Positions 10,212-17,570 of a DNA stretch of 64,000 bases are shown one piece after another. The stretch's first letter is position 1; every line of letters starts with the position of its first letter. Position numbers and translations under genes: made by a program. The stretch is from Fimbriimonas ginsengisoli Gsoil 348 (GTDB taxonomy: Bacteria; Armatimonadota; Fimbriimonadia; Fimbriimonadales; Fimbriimonadaceae): NCBI RefSeq assembly GCF_000724625.1, contig NZ_CP007139.1:2170001-2234000 (forward strand), written 5' to 3'. The notes below the pieces were generated by a model. It did no database searches and was not told the DNA's origin. It saw only the letters and a list, made by a program, of their open reading frames with translations.

Positions 10212-10248
10212 CCCCCTCCTCATCGCACATACATCGACGAGGAGGGGG
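10212..10248. terminator. Bidirectional terminator hairpin between convergent genes
   Basis: CCCCCTCCTC (10212-10221) pairs with GAGGAGGGGG (10239-10248) around a 17-base loop. It lies between the purA stop and the stop of the convergent membrane protein gene. T-runs are poor on both sides, so it is a hairpin in the right place rather than a textbook terminator. Confidence 0.5.
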
Positions 10249-10255
10249 CTCCGGA

Positions 10256-10681
10256 TTATCGGGTGCCGATGGCGCGGCCGAGTCGCGGTGAGGCGACCGA
10301 TCGGGTCCGGGTGGTCATGAAGGCCACGGTGGAAGCGCCGGCGACGACGATCGCCCAAGCCCCGAGATCCATCAAGATCATGGTCGAGACGTAGGTCGGG
10401 TCCAGCTTGAAGAACGTCGGCGGGTAAGAGACTCCGAGGAGGAGGCCAGCGTAAGCGACGGCCAATAGCGGAAGCACCCACAGCATCTTAGCCGGGCGAA
10501 GCTTCAGCACTTGAACCGAGATTGCGCAGGCGACGCCGATGATGAGGCCGAGAGTGGCGTGACCGACAAAGTTGGCGGCGCTCAGCCCGCCCATCGTCAA
10601 GCCGATGGCGACGATTTCAATTACGCGAAGAATGGGCACGCCGAGGATTAGCGAGAGCCCGAGATAAATTTTCTTTTCCAT
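10256..10681 (-). CDS. Small polytopic membrane protein, unknown function
   Basis: A 141-residue protein with about four hydrophobic segments (residues about 5-28, 38-58, 66-86, 98-120) and a short basic tail. I do not recognise the family. Its ATG lies 34 bases inside the end of the upstream pseudopilin gene in another frame, so it is translationally linked to it. Position as last gene of a three-gene cluster (Cys-rich secreted peptide, pseudopilin, this protein) suggests a role with them at the envelope, which is inference only. Confidence 0.65.
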   Translation of the reverse strand: MEKKIYLGLSLILGVPILRVIEIVAIGLTMGGLSAANFVGHATLGLIIGVACAISVQVLKLRPAKMLWVLPLLAVAYAGLLLGVSYPPTFFKLDPTYVSTMILMDLGAWAIVVAGASTVAFMTTRTRSVASPRLGRAIGTR

Positions 10682-11316
10682 TCGTCTGTTCCGTCCACAA
10701 AGAGGAAGAAGTTATGCTCCGCGCGATCACCCCCGCCACCCGGCGAGAGGTAGACCGGTTGGACCCGGTGAGTTTGAACCGAACCATCGAGGACCAAGCG
10801 GTGGTAGCTTCCTTCGTACCAGCCGATCCAAGCGCTCTTATCGCGGCGCTCAACCGAAGCGATGCTGACTAGCCAGCCCGCCGTAGGGTTGTCCTTGATG
10901 TATTTGTCGATCCACTCATAGGGCATGCAGAATTCACGTAGGCCGGGGTAACTGTTCCGGAATTTTGAGACGGCTTCGGGGTGATTTCCCATCTGCGCGT
11001 AATCTTCGCGGGCGACGAGATTGCCGATGCCATCCAGCGTGTTGTCCAATGCGGATGAGCAGACCGTTTCGGGGGCGTAGTGGCCCTCAACCAAAACCGC
11101 GGGGGAGAGGGGGACGTATCCGGTATCTCCGGTATAGATCCCCTGCGCCACTGCGAGTTGGTGCATGTTGTTGAGCTCGGAGGTTTCCGCGGCTCGACGC
11201 TTGGAGGCGAGCAGGACCGGCGCCAAAATCCCGGCGAGCGTCATCACGATGCCGATGACGACGAGGATCTCCACTAAGGTGAAGGCTTGGGACGGTTGGG
11301 GGCGCCGAGCGTGCAT
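10648..11316 (-). CDS. Prepilin-like (pseudopilin) protein with N-terminal methylation motif
   Basis: A 222-residue protein. Residues 11-32 give AFTLVEILVVIGIVMTLAGI, the type IV pilin/pseudopilin N-methylation signature with Glu5 of the mature form; cleavage would follow the short basic leader. The remainder (ASKRRAAETSELNNMHQLAVAQGIYTGD, then a domain with WIGWYEGSYHRLVLDGS near the C-terminus) fits the large families of prepilin-like proteins found in Armatimonadota and Planctomycetota. It follows the Cys-rich peptide gene by 15 bases and overlaps the downstream membrane gene. No prepilin peptidase or assembly ATPase is encoded in this window. Confidence 0.85.
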   Translation of the reverse strand: MHARRPQPSQAFTLVEILVVIGIVMTLAGILAPVLLASKRRAAETSELNNMHQLAVAQGIYTGDTGYVPLSPAVLVEGHYAPETVCSSALDNTLDGIGNLVAREDYAQMGNHPEAVSKFRNSYPGLREFCMPYEWIDKYIKDNPTAGWLVSIASVERRDKSAWIGWYEGSYHRLVLDGSVQTHRVQPVYLSPGGGGDRAEHNFFLFVDGTDEWKRKFISGSR

Positions 11317-11331
11317 GGTAGTTCTACGCCG

Positions 11332-11691
11332 TTACTGAGTGCAGTTGCCCTCAGGACACGGAGCCGCGTCGTACTGGTGATCGCTACACCGGTTGGTGGC
11401 GGACCAGCCGCTCCATCCGTAGTAGAAACCGTTCGAGCATTGGTACCTTTGGCAGGTGCCGGTTAGGATTGCGTACGGGGTTCCGTTCTTACTGCTGAGA
11501 CCGCAGCCGTAGTCCAACTGGGACTTCTCTTTGTCGATTTGGGTGTCTGGGAAGCAGTTCAGGCAAACCGGCTTGGAACCGACGCCTCCCCCACCGTCCA
11601 GGGCATTCATCGACGCCGTGCCGGCGACGCCGAGTGCAAAGGGCAAGCACAGCAGCGCGACCAGGGGGCCGATCAGAGGATTTGTTCGCAT
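11332..11691 (-). CDS. Small secreted Cys-rich protein, unknown
   Basis: A 119-residue protein. Residues 1-25 form a signal peptide (basic start, LIGPLVALLCLPFALGVAGT). The mature part has eight cysteines in the pattern CLNC, YGCG, GTCQRYQC, NRC, APC, NC, enough for four disulfides, and aromatic/glycine-rich stretches (GFYYGWSGWSA). No known family recognised. It is the first gene of a cluster with a pseudopilin 15 bases downstream and a membrane protein. The spacing suggests co-transcription and a shared function at the cell surface or outside it. Confidence 0.7.
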   Translation of the reverse strand: MRTNPLIGPLVALLCLPFALGVAGTASMNALDGGGGVGSKPVCLNCFPDTQIDKEKSQLDYGCGLSSKNGTPYAILTGTCQRYQCSNGFYYGWSGWSATNRCSDHQYDAAPCPEGNCTQ

Positions 11692-11813: not shown

Positions 11814-11940
11814 AAAATACTGATAATTGTTGGTTTTTTCGCTACTCTCGATACCTCGTGTGGGTGTAGATTGCGGCGTTCGTCGCGGGTTTCGCTTCTT
11901 AGCGCAACCGTCTCGCGACTGCGCAGTATGTTCTCACTCA

Positions 11941-13230
11941 ATGCCTCGACCGATCCGCACGCTCTCCCTCTTCATGCTTGTCCTCGTTGCGTCGCCGTCG
12001 CTGGCGCTCGCGCAGGATTCGACCCTGACTCTCGACCAGGCTTTACGCTTGGCCAAGGAAAGGAACGGCACGATCCGTTCCGCCCAGTACGACGTGAATG
12101 CTGCCGAAAGTCGCGTTACGCAAGCATTTAGCGCGTTCCTTCCGACGGTTACGCCGCAGTATCAATACAATAACATACGTCGCGACGGAAACCAACCACT
12201 TTTTGTTACCAATGGCGACGCGGGGCTCCTGTCAGGAAACTGGCGTCTCCTCGACTCGGGCGAGCGGGACTTCTCGTACCGTTCGAGCAAACACTCTCTG
12301 TACGCCTCACGTTTCAATGCGAAGCAGACTTTACGCACAACTTTGTTCGCGGTTACCCAGCAATTTTACGATGCTCTCCGCTTCCAGGAGCTAGCGCGCG
12401 TCGCCGACTCGCAAGTTGATCGGGCGCAGACGATTTATGACCAGACGATGCTTCGCATCAAGCTTCGGGATGCGGCCGCGATCGAGGAGCTACAGGCGGA
12501 CGCCGACCTTCAGAACGCGAAGGTGGCGGTGCTGACCGCTCGGAACCGGGTTACGAACGCGGCCGCCAGCCTCAAGTCGGCCATCGGGCTTGATGCCGGG
12601 CAAGCGCTTCCGACCCTGGAGAAAGATACGGCGGAACTGCCCGAAATGCCGGGGAACTTAGATTCGATCGTCACCGAGGGGCTTCGCCAGCGTCCGGACC
12701 TCCTTTCCCGAAGAGAAGCCTTGGACTCCGAGCGACTGACTCGAAGCCGGGCTCAGCGCGAGGCGGGGGTTTCGTTCGCGCTCGACCTGAGCAACGATTA
12801 TCAGTTCTCCCCTTCGCGGCTCAATAACCGTAACCTCGGCCTCGTCGTCTCCTATCCGTTGTTCGACGGTGGACGAACTCGCGCCATCGTTCGCGAGCTC
12901 AGCGCGAATATCTCCGCCGACTCAGCCCTGTTGCTTCAAGCCGAGCGGGACGCGAGGGCCGAGATCGAGGCCGCCGCGGCCGAAGCGCGGACGAATCGGG
13001 AGCGGCTCGTCGCCGCGAAAAAGGCGTTGGATGCCGCCCAGAAGAATTTCGAGGCGGCGGTAAACTCTCGCAGCAAAGGGGCGTCCGACCTCTTGCAGGT
13101 GATCACTGCCCAAGTTAGCCTGGTAACTGCGGAATCAAATCATATCGAAGCGCAGTATGACTCTCGTATCTCCGATGCGCGGTTGAGGTTGGTCACGGGC
13201 CAACCGGTTCCGGGCGAAGACAATCCATGA
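11941..13230 (+). CDS. TolC-like outer-membrane efflux protein
   Basis: A 429-residue protein. The start at 11941 is chosen because it gives a clean signal peptide (IRTLSLFMLVLVASPSLALA) followed by DSTLTLDQALRLAKERN, the usual start of mature TolC-type proteins; an earlier frame from 11827 lacks this. Two repeats of long helices and beta strands are visible, with FDGGRTRAIVREL in the second half typical of the family. It would form the outer-membrane channel for the MacA/MacB proteins encoded next; its stop overlaps the macA-like start (ATGA). The start has no Shine-Dalgarno sequence. Confidence 0.88.
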   Translation: MPRPIRTLSLFMLVLVASPSLALAQDSTLTLDQALRLAKERNGTIRSAQYDVNAAESRVTQAFSAFLPTVTPQYQYNNIRRDGNQPLFVTNGDAGLLSGNWRLLDSGERDFSYRSSKHSLYASRFNAKQTLRTTLFAVTQQFYDALRFQELARVADSQVDRAQTIYDQTMLRIKLRDAAAIEELQADADLQNAKVAVLTARNRVTNAAASLKSAIGLDAGQALPTLEKDTAELPEMPGNLDSIVTEGLRQRPDLLSRREALDSERLTRSRAQREAGVSFALDLSNDYQFSPSRLNNRNLGLVVSYPLFDGGRTRAIVRELSANISADSALLLQAERDARAEIEAAAAEARTNRERLVAAKKALDAAQKNFEAAVNSRSKGASDLLQVITAQVSLVTAESNHIEAQYDSRISDARLRLVTGQPVPGEDNP

Positions 13231-14942
13231 ATTCACGTAACGTCCTGTTCCTTGGCATTCCCGTCCTTTTCTTGGGCGGGTACGCCTTTCTCAACCGCAA
13301 GCCGCCCGAAACCTCTGAGATCGAATACCGGTACGCGACCGTCGCAAAAGGCGAGTTGATGCGGTCGATCTCCGCCACTGGCCAGGTCGTTGCCCTGACC
13401 ACGGTGGATGTGAAGTCGAAAGCGGGCGGCAAGGTTGTGAAACTGGCGGTCGACGAAGGGGCCGTGGTTCATAAAGGGGACCTAATCGCCACGATCGACC
13501 CGGCGGACACGCAGTCGATCGTCGACCAGGCAAGCGCCGATTTACAGAGCGCCAATGCGCGGGCGGACCAGGCGGAAAAGAATCTCGAGCTTCAGATTGC
13601 CCAGGGCCGTAACGACGTCGAGGATGCCCGAACCGCCCTCGAGGCGGCTAAAGTGCGATACCGGCGCGCGGGGATCCAGTCGAAGCGGCAGCCTGGGTTG
13701 ACCAAGGCCACGATCGCGCAGGCGCAAGCCGCCTACGACGCATCCGTGGCGGAAATGGAACGTATGCAGCGCGTCACCATCCCGCAGATGCGCCGCGACT
13801 CTCAGGGAAATCTCAGCCAAGCAACCGCCCAGCGCGACACCGCCGTATCCGAGCTGAAGCGGCAAGAAGAACTGCTGGACAAGGGGTACGTATCGGGAGC
13901 GGCCGTCGACCGTGCGCGGGCCGCGGCGGAAGTGGCCAAGACGTCCTACGAGACGGCCAAGCAGCGAGCCAGCACTCTCGAGGACGAAGTAAAGGCAAAC
14001 CTCGAAGCCCAAAGGAGGGCGGTGGCGCGCGCTCGCGCCGCGCTTGACGAGACTCAGATCAACATCGCCGACGACGACATCAGCCGCACGAACGTCGCCG
14101 AAGCCGCGAGAAACATCCGAACCGCCGAGGTGGCCCTTCAGCGGGCGAAAGACAACCTTATGCAGACCGAGATTCGGCGCACCGAGGTTCTGGCCGCCCG
14201 CGCGTCCACGGTGCGCAATAAGGTTTCGCTAAAGAATGCTCAGGTTCAGCTGGATAGCACCACGGTTCTCGCGCCGCGAGACGGGGTGGTGACGCAGAAG
14301 TATTTGGAAGAGGGCACGATCATCCCTCCCGGCACCAGCACATTTTCACAAGGCACCAGCCTGGTGCAGATCAGCGACGTTACCCAGTTGTTCGTCGAGT
14401 GCGCGGTGGATGAAGCCGAGGTCGCCAACGTCAAGATCGGCCAACCGGTCCGGATCACCGCCGACGCATTCCGCGGCCAGCCGATGGACGGCGTGGTGAC
14501 CCGTGTCAATCCGGCCGCGAAGACGGAGAACAACGTAACGGCGGTCAAGGTTCGCGTCAAGGTTTTGCCGGGGGGCAAGGTCCGGATTGTGCCGGGTATG
14601 AACGCTACTTGCGAGTTCATCACGCTTAGCAAGAAAGATGTCTTGATCGTTCCAAGCCAGGCGCTTCAAGACGATGGCACGGTGCAGTTGAAGGGACCGG
14701 ATCCCAAGAAACCGATTTCGAAAAAGGTGGAGGTCGGAGAGACAGGAAACGATTCGATCGAAATCAAAGACGGCCTGAAAGTGGGAGATGAAGTCGTAAC
14801 CGCCAAGATCGACTTGGCGCTCCTGCGCGATACGCAGAAGAAGATGCAGGAAGCCGAACAGGGTGGCGGCCTCGCGGGCGGCGGCCCCATGGGCGGCAAA
14901 AAGACCCCGAACCGAAACGCGAAGAAACCGGGAGGGAAGTAG
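13227..14942 (+). CDS. MacA-like periplasmic adaptor (HlyD family) of an ABC efflux pump
   Basis: A 571-residue protein with an N-terminal membrane anchor (residues 5-23). A biotinyl-lipoyl-like half (VDVKSKAGGKVVKLAVDEGAVVHKGDLI) is followed by an unusually long helical hairpin of about 250 residues rich in Ala/Glu/Arg, then the second lipoyl half (VLAPRDGVVTQKYLEEGTII), a beta-barrel domain and a membrane-proximal domain. The C-terminus is Gly/Lys-rich. The length exceeds that of typical MacA (about 370) because of the long coiled coil. It bridges TolC and the MacB permease. The start overlaps the tolC-like stop by four bases. Confidence 0.88.
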   Translation: MNSRNVLFLGIPVLFLGGYAFLNRKPPETSEIEYRYATVAKGELMRSISATGQVVALTTVDVKSKAGGKVVKLAVDEGAVVHKGDLIATIDPADTQSIVDQASADLQSANARADQAEKNLELQIAQGRNDVEDARTALEAAKVRYRRAGIQSKRQPGLTKATIAQAQAAYDASVAEMERMQRVTIPQMRRDSQGNLSQATAQRDTAVSELKRQEELLDKGYVSGAAVDRARAAAEVAKTSYETAKQRASTLEDEVKANLEAQRRAVARARAALDETQINIADDDISRTNVAEAARNIRTAEVALQRAKDNLMQTEIRRTEVLAARASTVRNKVSLKNAQVQLDSTTVLAPRDGVVTQKYLEEGTIIPPGTSTFSQGTSLVQISDVTQLFVECAVDEAEVANVKIGQPVRITADAFRGQPMDGVVTRVNPAAKTENNVTAVKVRVKVLPGGKVRIVPGMNATCEFITLSKKDVLIVPSQALQDDGTVQLKGPDPKKPISKKVEVGETGNDSIEIKDGLKVGDEVVTAKIDLALLRDTQKKMQEAEQGGGLAGGGPMGGKKTPNRNAKKPGGK

Positions 14943-14995
14943 GGGGAAGCGCGTTGGGCGCACGGACCTGAGCCTACAACAACTGCTAACACAAA

Positions 14996-16204
14996 ATGAA
15001 TATTGGCGACTCTCTTCGAACCGCGCTTCGGGCGGTGGCGGCTAATAAGCTTCGCTCGTTTCTCACGATGCTGGGGGTGGTGATCGGCGTCGGTTCGGTC
15101 ATTGCTATGATCGGGATCGGCGAAGGGACCAAGAAGAAGTCGCTCGAGCAGATTCAGGTGATGGGGACGAACATGCTAACCGTGTTCCCCAATTGGCGGC
15201 GGGGCGGCGTGGGGATGTCGAACGACGTTCCGACCTTGAAGGACGAGGACGTGCCGGCCCTAAAGAAGGCGGTCCCGCTCATCGAATACATCACCGGCTC
15301 TGTCGGTTCGCGGGTGATGGCCAAGTACAAGGCGACGAACTACATGACGCAGGTGTCCGGCGGCGAGCCACAAATGGCGATCATCCGGAACGCGACCAAG
15401 ATGCACGCCGGCCACTGGTACACGATGGACGACGAGGCGAGCGCCCGACGCGTTTGCGTGCTCGGCTGGGTCACGTATCAGGAGCTTTTCGGGGAAGACA
15501 ACGCTGTCGGCGCCACCGTTAGGATCAAGAACCAGAACTTCGAGGTACTGGGCGTCGTTTCGTATAAAGGCGGGGCGGGGAACTGGAATCCCGACGACCA
15601 GATCTACATCCCGCTTTCCACCGCCAAGCACCGTCTGCTGGGCCGTACCAACCTCGACAACATTCTCATCCAGGGGAAGGACGCGGATTTGCTGCCGATC
15701 ACCCAAACGATGGTTGAAGACACCTTGGGCCAGAAACGGCGGAACACGACGGGCGATCCGCTGTTCCGTGTGATGAACCAGGGCGAGTGGATCGAGACGA
15801 TGCAGAAGCAGACCCAATTGCTGTCCATTCTCCTCGCCGGCATCGCCTCTATCTCGCTCCTCGTCGGCGGCATCGGGATCATGAACATCATGCTCGTCTC
15901 GGTAACCGAGCGGACTCGCGAGATTGGGCTCCGCAAGGCGATCGGTGCGAAGCGGGAGAGCATTTTGTGGCAGTTCCTGCTGGAGAGCGTGGTCATGTGC
16001 ACCGTCGGCGGTCTCATTGGCGTGCTCCTCGGCACCGCCACGGTATTCCTCATTTCCGGTTTGCTGAAGGTGCCGCCGGTGCTGAACAGCCAGGCGATCT
16101 TGATGGCGTTCGGATTCTCCGCCGGAGTTGGCCTGTTCTTCGGCCTCTATCCGGCGATGCGCGCCAGCCGGCTCCAACCGATCGAGGCTCTGCGGTACGA
16201 GTAG
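14996..16204 (+). CDS. MacB/FtsX-type ABC transporter permease
   Basis: A 402-residue protein with a membrane segment at about 15-40 (LRSFLTMLGVVIGVGSVIAMIGIG), a periplasmic MacB core domain (40-270) and three more membrane segments at about 280-305, 330-355 and 365-390. It has GIGIMNIMLVSVTERTREIG and GLRKAIGAKR, signatures of FtsX-type permeases. It lacks the ATPase domain that is fused to it in E. coli MacB; the matching ATPase is encoded at 16818. The gap from the adaptor gene is 53 bases, so the two are probably co-transcribed. Substrate (macrolide, lipid, peptide or polysaccharide) cannot be told. Confidence 0.9.
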   Translation: MNIGDSLRTALRAVAANKLRSFLTMLGVVIGVGSVIAMIGIGEGTKKKSLEQIQVMGTNMLTVFPNWRRGGVGMSNDVPTLKDEDVPALKKAVPLIEYITGSVGSRVMAKYKATNYMTQVSGGEPQMAIIRNATKMHAGHWYTMDDEASARRVCVLGWVTYQELFGEDNAVGATVRIKNQNFEVLGVVSYKGGAGNWNPDDQIYIPLSTAKHRLLGRTNLDNILIQGKDADLLPITQTMVEDTLGQKRRNTTGDPLFRVMNQGEWIETMQKQTQLLSILLAGIASISLLVGGIGIMNIMLVSVTERTREIGLRKAIGAKRESILWQFLLESVVMCTVGGLIGVLLGTATVFLISGLLKVPPVLNSQAILMAFGFSAGVGLFFGLYPAMRASRLQPIEALRYE

Positions 16205-16207
16205 AGC

Positions 16208-16720
16208 CTATACGTTAACCAGACAGCCGCACTCGAGCCGAATTTCAATGGGCGTGTTCAGACGACGAACGCCTTCGAGCCGGTGGTGATAGACCTGCCC
16301 GGTGTATGGATCGACGACCACTACGTCCTTTACTCCTCGGTTGAGATAGAAAGGCGGATTCATCTCGAGGTCCTTGGTCTCCGAGCCCCGGCTCACTACT
16401 TCAACCACGGCTTCCGGTACGAGCGTTACCGCCTCATCCTCTTCGTCGGGCTCTCGGCAGAAGATCGCGATATCGGGTCGCTTCAGCGATCCATCACTGA
16501 ATTGCACATAGAGATCTTGGTAGGCGATGCATCCGCAACCGCTCGAAGATTCGGGGTCCGGCCGAATGGACTTTTCGATTCTCTTGGCGGTGCTGATGTG
16601 ACGCTTTGCCGGCTGAACCTCCCAGATGCCGACACCGTTCATCAGTTCGAGCCGGTAACCGTTTTCGTCGGCCTCGACAAGCGCCTGCTTTAACAGAGTT
16701 GGGTCGACTAACCGGCTCAT
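16208..16720 (-). CDS. Uma2 family (DUF820) restriction-endonuclease-fold protein
   Basis: A 170-residue protein from the ATG at 16720; a longer frame to 16789 is possible. The PD-(D/E)XK-like core is visible as KRPDIAIF, then VPEAVVEVVSRGSETKDLEMN and YLNRGVKDVVVVDPYTGQVYHH, all typical of Uma2 proteins, which are abundant in cyanobacteria and several other phyla with unknown function. It lies antisense between the permease and ATPase genes of the efflux pump, its stop four bases from the permease stop. Its place suggests later insertion. Confidence 0.85.
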   Translation of the reverse strand: MSRLVDPTLLKQALVEADENGYRLELMNGVGIWEVQPAKRHISTAKRIEKSIRPDPESSSGCGCIAYQDLYVQFSDGSLKRPDIAIFCREPDEEDEAVTLVPEAVVEVVSRGSETKDLEMNPPFYLNRGVKDVVVVDPYTGQVYHHRLEGVRRLNTPIEIRLECGCLVNV

Positions 16721-16817
16721 AAAGATATTATGCGGCAGGGCTACGACACGCTTTCGCGTCAATATCTCCGAACGTCGCAGCCTGAGCAAGGCAAAGCGCG
16801 TAACCTACACCAAGAAT

Positions 16818-17570
16818 ATGAGCAAGCCGGTTATTGAGGTCAATGGGATTTGCAAGGACTACGTGATGGGAGATCAGGTGGTCCACGCGTTGCGGTCCGT
16901 GAATCTGGTTATCGAGCCTGGCGAGTTCGTCGCGATCATGGGGCCGTCGGGCTCGGGCAAGTCGACCTTCATGAACGTCATCGGCTGCCTCGACCGACCG
17001 ACGGCCGGCGAATATCTCCTGAACGGCGAGGCGGTCGCCCGGATGGGCGACAACGCTCTGGCCGAGATCCGGAACAAATACATCGGCTTCGTGTTCCAGA
17101 ACTTCAATCTCCTCCCCCGCACCTCCGCGCTCAAGAACGTCGAGCTCCCGCTGATGTACGCCGGGGCGAAGGGCCGAACCGCGCGCGCCAAGAAGGCGTT
17201 GGAATTGGTCGGCCTGGCCCAGCGAATGGACCACACCCCGGCGATGCTCTCCGGCGGGCAGCAGCAACGCGTGGCGATCGCCCGCGCGATCGTGAACGAC
17301 CCGGTGCTGATTCTGGGTGACGAGCCGACGGGAAACCTGGACTCCCGCACGAGCGAGGAAATCATGGCCGTTTTCCAGCAGCTCAACCGCGAGGGGAAGA
17401 CGGTCGTGATCGTCACCCACGAAGAGGACGTCGCTCAGCACTGCAAGCGAATCATTCGATTTAAAGACGGCTACGTCCGCGTGGACGAGCGAGTTGAAAA
17501 GCCGGTTGACGCCCGCGACATCATCGCGAACATGTCGGCGCCGGAAGATGAGCTGGTCGCGGCGAAGTAA
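16818..17570 (+). CDS. ABC transporter ATP-binding protein (MacB/LolD type)
   Basis: A 250-residue ATPase with Walker [10 protein letters not shown] (about 40-48), Q-loop ([11 protein letters not shown]), signature [14 protein letters not shown], Walker [14 protein letters not shown] and H-loop VIVTHEED. This matches the MacB/LolD/FtsE group. It would energise the FtsX-type permease encoded at 14996-16204, from which it is separated by the antisense Uma2 gene, so it must have its own promoter or be transcribed through that gene. The C-terminal 30 residues are an extension beyond the usual family end. Confidence 0.93.

Follow-up and report, generated by a model that had tools for sequence, protein, structure and literature searches.

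Introduction

The minor pseudopilins known from type II secretion systems (T2SS) are encoded by genes of the gsp operon and serve all substrates. Among disulfide-containing bacteriocins, sublancin is accompanied by thiol-disulfide oxidoreductases of its own. The Verru_Chthon cassette (TIGR02596 and its relatives) is built around a prepilin-motif protein, and we know of no Cys-rich partner in it. T2SS was shown to export folded, often disulfide-bonded proteins, and the mechanism of cargo recruitment is unresolved (PMC7949064). In the genome paper on Fimbriimonas ginsengisoli Gsoil 348, a genome of 5.23 Mb with 79 PulG genes was described, PilB, C, D, Q, M and several Pul proteins were given, fimbriae were reported and attachment was suggested (PMC4072686).

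A 64-kb stretch of this complete 5.23-Mb genome, referred to here as the window, contains three adjacent genes encoding an exported Cys-rich peptide (gene 1), a pseudopilin (gene 2) and a membrane protein (gene 3). In an earlier note on this DNA the trio was regarded as a possible surface-display or secretion module, and we likewise infer that it may be one. A literature search revealed no description of such a cassette.

Like the T2SS minor pseudopilins (GspH/I/J/K), gene 2 encodes a prepilin motif, a long N-terminal helix and one small globular C-terminal domain; unlike them, it stands alone with one putative cargo gene instead of within a gsp operon. It shares its genome and its N-terminal motif with the expanded Fimbriimonas pseudopilins but differs from the 40 others that were tested in having its own C-terminal domain family and two partner genes. 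The trio also resembles the disulfide-containing bacteriocins in that a Cys-rich exported product goes with a small membrane protein and, in some cases, with dedicated disulfide enzymes; however, it includes a pseudopilin instead of an ABC exporter and has neither a family match nor a known activity. With the Verru_Chthon cassette the trio shares its arrangement around a prepilin-motif protein, but the assignment of gene 2 as Verru_Chthon cassette protein D (TIGR02596) was rejected at 17.3 bits versus a cut-off of 70, with a match to the N-terminus only.

Organization of the locus

All three genes are located on the minus strand (peptide, 11691..11332; pseudopilin, 11316..10648; membrane protein, 10681..10256). 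Gene 1 (11332..11691) is an open reading frame for a protein of 119 aa with a C-terminal CPxxxC tail. Its hydrophobic N-terminus is of the Sec type, and the predicted signal region (MRTNPLIGPLVALLCLPFALGVAGTASMNA, 11599..11691) was assigned by hydropathy only, so that its boundary is approximate. The mature Cys-rich domain (11335..11568, 78 aa) contains eight cysteines and matched the family profile with 71.9 bits (E 4e-19); a ninth cysteine lies inside the signal region. Gene 2 (10648..11316), which begins after a spacer of exactly 15 bases (11317..11331), encodes a protein of 222 aa, identified as a pseudopilin by its PF07963 match, its AlphaFold2 model and its similarity to PilA4, with cleavage expected before F12. 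The prepilin N-methylation motif is located at 11224..11292 (G000:C1:2181224-2181292; E 1.3e-4), and the C-terminal domain, which defines the pseudopilin family, at 10669..11184 (profile A2, 196.8 bits, E 5e-58). Gene 3 (10256..10681) overlaps gene 2 by 34 bases and is an open reading frame for a membrane protein of 141 aa with four predicted hydrophobic spans. The description given in the earlier note, namely, a signal-peptide protein with eight cysteines, a pseudopilin 15 bases downstream and an overlapping four-pass membrane protein, was thus reproduced in each part.

The trio is flanked by purA (convergent) and an outer membrane efflux gene (divergent). Between the convergent ends of purA and the trio, at 10212-10248, there is a perfect 10-base inverted repeat (CCCCCTCCTC, a 17-base loop, GAGGAGGGGG), which is perhaps a shared terminator of both, lacking a clear T run. 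A simple scan for promoters and terminators at the trio gave nothing useful. The adjoining stretch at 11827-17570 is an efflux gene set, the first gene of which encodes an OEP-family outer membrane protein (Pfam) and is followed, as judged by sequence, by genes for a membrane-fusion protein, a MacB-like permease and an ABC ATPase. A small gene, Uma2-like in appearance, is located within this stretch on the other strand (16208-16789).

The pseudopilin and the filament machinery

The prepilin motif of gene 2 (SQAF/TLVEI) matched Pfam N_methyl PF07963 with 21.7 bits versus a cut-off of 21.2. The AlphaFold2 model (pLDDT 93.6) contained a predicted N-terminal helix at residues 3-54 (52 residues). 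The best PDB match was PilA4 of T. thermophilus (6xxd), covering about 71 N-terminal columns only, and in the PDB fold search the significant match was confined to the pilin helix. Three features of the type IV pilin/pseudopilin superfamily, namely, the motif, the long N-terminal helix with a globular domain, and a peptidase and platform in the genome, were found for gene 2. The pseudopilin is of a known kind, and the peptide family and the cassette appear to be new.

Two further assignments were rejected: the major pseudopilin GspG (TIGR01710) was matched with 29 bits versus a cut-off of 88.85, at the N-terminus only, and no family of the H-X9-DG/DUF1559 type was present among the Pfam and NCBIfam matches. 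A conserved pseudopilin cysteine, considered as a link to the peptide, was dropped because in the alignment it also occurs at loci without the peptide. A complete trio is followed, two genes downstream, by a second gene for a relative of the cassette pseudopilin (L053:4578-5213), whose product has an N-terminal membrane span and no prepilin motif.

The genome (G000) contains 103 N_methyl pseudopilin motifs. A single prepilin peptidase (Peptidase_A24) is encoded at G000:C1:2579389-2579706, adjoining a GspF/PilC gene and more pilin motifs. Twelve T2SSF half-domains, corresponding to six GspF/PilC platform proteins, and four secretins were found, none of them beside the trio. The earlier note had pointed out the missing pilus machinery alongside. 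This is accurate, but it does not set the trio apart, because pseudopilins located away from the machinery are the rule in this genome. Since shared machinery is kept elsewhere, its absence beside the trio carries no weight, and a lone pseudopilin, being ordinary in this genome, is by itself no pointer to a new system.

A family of Cys-rich exported peptides

A BLAST search with the peptide revealed two relatives, in genomes G019 and G026, with 37-41% identity over the mature part; in both genomes the three-gene order is identical to that of the window. The wider peptide family emerged only when all frames upstream of the pseudopilin matches were read. Alignment of 26 mature domains showed three invariant cysteines and the CPxxxC tail. 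When 291 genomes of the phylum were searched with the peptide profile, about 35 good matches were obtained, nearly all directly upstream of the cassette pseudopilin type; at locus L100, at a contig end, the peptide alone is visible. Matches in G202, G281, G290 and G107 (E 0.004-0.009, mostly with stops) were judged to be due to chance. In leave-one-out profile searches, 27 of the 28 peptides were recovered with E below 3e-5 among 3,900 other frames, and the top-scoring "decoys" score like true copies of the family that probably remained in the set. By these sequence comparisons, the peptides of the trio form one homologous family.

No match to the gene 1 peptide was found in Pfam, NCBIfam, PADLOC or PDB, and none of the 26 family members matched Pfam. 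The best AlphaFold2 model of the mature peptide was mainly beta (pLDDT 92.2; 69.6-84.4 for the other four models), and a fold search with it in PDB and BFVD gave nothing significant. By both sequence and fold, the gene 1 peptide thus represents a genuine new family, and the possibility raised in the earlier note that profile methods might assign it to a known family with another role was not borne out.

Recurrence of the trio

Profile A2, which represents the C-terminal domain of the pseudopilin, matched in 38 of the 113 genomes of the order. The loci were searched in all frames upstream and downstream, and one fixed detector was then applied, which yielded 43 strong family loci. An intact exported peptide with the Cys tail, its stop lying no more than 103 bases from the pilin motif, was found directly upstream at 30 of the 43 loci, and these 30 carry all three genes. 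At three further loci (L060, L079 and L091) the peptide frame is interrupted by a stop or truncated where a contig ends; because several of the relatives are draft genomes, some of the broken frames may be assembly errors. A membrane protein with 3-4 spans and about 140 residues (124-174 aa), starting between -94 and +196 bases from the pseudopilin stop, was located directly downstream at 41 of the 43 loci. For 40 other pseudopilins of the window's own genome, used as controls, the corresponding counts were 0/40 and 1/40. At eight or so loci (at least eight), the pseudopilin and the membrane protein stand without any remnant of the peptide, which indicates that this pair has some role without the peptide.

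The cassettes sit in different chromosomal contexts, and no fourth gene recurs nearby. Their distribution is patchy, with several copies in one genome in G026 and G106. The set is also carried by two other families of the phylum: in G142 (L102), two thioredoxin-like genes are followed by the peptide, the pseudopilin and a four-span protein, and in G214 (L154), MauE with a thioredoxin-like part is followed by a Cys-rich exported protein, the pseudopilin and a three-span protein. At more distant pseudopilins (L094, L096, L097 and L098), the order is peptide-membrane-pseudopilin, and the Cys-rich peptides are of other sizes. The association therefore survives rearrangement, since the genes stay together in this order as well as in the order peptide-pseudopilin-membrane. 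The proposal of the earlier note that the trio be followed across genomes was answered positively, the genes being kept together in relatives in several contexts and in two orders.

A single open frame on the minus strand at L155:2413-3513 encodes several membrane spans and then a complete pseudopilin; as read from its sequence, it is a possible fusion of gene 3 and gene 2. A single-protein scan of the genome collection matched only Fimbriimonadaceae bacterium ACE_ARM1 (CP075364.1; G026), and in a plasmid search only the pilin N-terminus was matched. At L061:567-1629, a short way from a true cassette of that genome, the gene for a distinct exported peptide rich in cysteine overlaps that for an unrelated pseudopilin; this may be a similar pairing of independent origin. 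About 2 kb from a double cassette, L059:7463-7804 encodes a further exported Cys-rich protein (113 aa), which has no pseudopilin of its own.

Divergence of the three genes and redox neighbors

The gene 3 proteins are extremely divergent (mean identity, 14%). A BLAST search with gene 3 over 61 genomes matched only gene 3 itself, Pfam gave no family match, and most gene 3 proteins were missed in the leave-one-out profile search. Because these searches fail for most members, a gene 3 family is not claimed; only the position, length and topology of gene 3 are conserved (41/43 loci).

Purifying selection acts on each of the three genes in L071/L075, the one close pair, with dN/dS of about 0.06 for the peptide, 0.04 for the pseudopilin and 0.05 for the membrane protein. 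At the syntenic site of L054 and L056, which has no peptide, the pseudopilins are 46% and the membrane proteins 40% identical with saturated synonymous sites, and the flanking genes are 78-95% identical (cassette genes at L054:2898-3925 and L056:3066-4174). Both allele replacement and rapid divergence fit this observation. Over 28 cassettes, the distances of the peptide and the pseudopilin were correlated (r 0.54, or 0.38 without a near-identical pair; p 2e-4). Correlations involving the membrane protein were weak once that pair was removed.

Disulfide enzymes adjoin some of the cassettes, namely, VKOR-DsbA (G019), DsbA (G005), AhpC/TSA (G142) and MauE with a thioredoxin-like part (G214), the MauE gene (PF07291, E 5.8e-15) being located directly upstream of the G214 cassette. 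An association with VKOR, suggested by G019, was rejected: of the 113 genomes of the order, 107 have VKOR, and just a single copy is adjacent to a cassette. VKOR was retained solely within a wider redox theme that is itself weak. The redox genes near a few cassettes fit folding before export and are too few for proof.

Discussion

Since the same three genes are found together at unrelated places in the chromosome across one poorly studied phylum, the trio probably forms an export or display cassette that has not been described before. Within this frame, we tentatively favor, with not quite an even chance, a self-contained cargo cassette that feeds shared type II secretion or type IV filament machinery. 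The product of gene 1 would be a small protein that is exported via Sec and folds in the periplasm, where its eight cysteines would form disulfides. The product of gene 2 would be a dedicated minor pseudopilin, cleaved by the single prepilin peptidase of the genome and built into a pseudopilus whose platform, motor and secretin proteins are encoded elsewhere. Its C-terminal domain would recognize the folded peptide, which would then be carried through the secretin or held at the filament tip, and the product of gene 3 may serve as an inner-membrane partner of the pseudopilin.

This cargo-cassette reading is supported by the presence of the trio at 30/43 loci versus 0/40 controls, by the position of nearly all confident peptide matches directly before the cassette pseudopilin type, by the association holding despite the change in gene order with no other neighbor recurring, by the correlated distances of peptide and pseudopilin, and by the disulfide enzymes adjoining some cassettes together with the peptidase, GspF/PilC proteins and secretins lying elsewhere. 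The loci without the peptide (about eight), the lack of sequence support for a gene 3 family and the small number of loci with redox enzymes argue against it.

The main rival, considered unlikely but deserving of attention, is a bacteriocin-like set in which gene 1 encodes a Cys-rich antibacterial toxin that the pseudopilin exports or presents and to which the four-pass protein makes the producer immune. A small exported protein of the disulfide type beside a small, extremely divergent membrane protein, the patchy distribution with several copies in G026 and G106, the membrane protein kept at some loci after peptide loss and the dispensability of any other neighbor gene would all suit such a set, and a toxin-immunity relationship would account for gene 3 being so extremely divergent. 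However, neither the peptide nor the membrane protein matches a toxin, immunity or defense family (Pfam, NCBIfam, PADLOC), selection in the one close pair is purifying and not diversifying, and simple immunity does not predict that the pseudopilin is retained with the membrane protein upon peptide loss. It is also rather improbable that the trio is a structural or adhesive filament unit, in which the peptide, remaining bound to the pseudopilin, forms a subunit of the tip or coat and functions in attachment: the fixed one-to-one association of peptide and pseudopilin and the fimbriae and suggested attachment in the genome paper (PMC4072686) are consistent with this, but neither a fold nor a family of adhesins was matched by the peptide, which is absent at many loci.

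The MauE gene directly upstream in G214 and the thioredoxin-fold genes in G142, G019 and G005 raise the idea of a redox or cofactor protein that is matured by MauE/thioredoxin-type enzymes, like the small subunit of methylamine dehydrogenase, and acts in electron transfer. This is very doubtful, because the peptides of the window, of the 26 family members and of G214 match no methylamine dehydrogenase light chain (Pfam), no partner enzyme subunit is located nearby and most cassettes have no redox neighbor. As for a chance adjacency of three unrelated genes, some of 103 scattered pseudopilin motifs will indeed adjoin small secreted genes, but this explanation was refuted by the control comparison (0/40 for the peptide and 1/40 for the membrane protein versus 30/43 and 41/43 at the family loci), and the trio is also kept in further families within the phylum; the probability of a chance adjacency is negligible.

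A bolder reading, to which we assign a low probability, is that portable pseudopilin cassettes occur phylum-wide. Each pseudopilin would carry a single disulfide-rich effector and no other cargo, and the membrane protein would provide immunity or gating. If this were true, the cassettes would constitute a modular, pilus-based delivery or competition system without a described counterpart.

A recurring unit in which a single small cargo candidate with a confident structural model is paired with its own pseudopilin would allow direct tests of how T2SS chooses cargo. It would offer a short protein, the soluble domain of the pseudopilin, numerous naturally matched pairs and natural variants without the peptide. 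It would also give a first hint as to why Armatimonadota carry about 100 pseudopilin genes with one prepilin peptidase.
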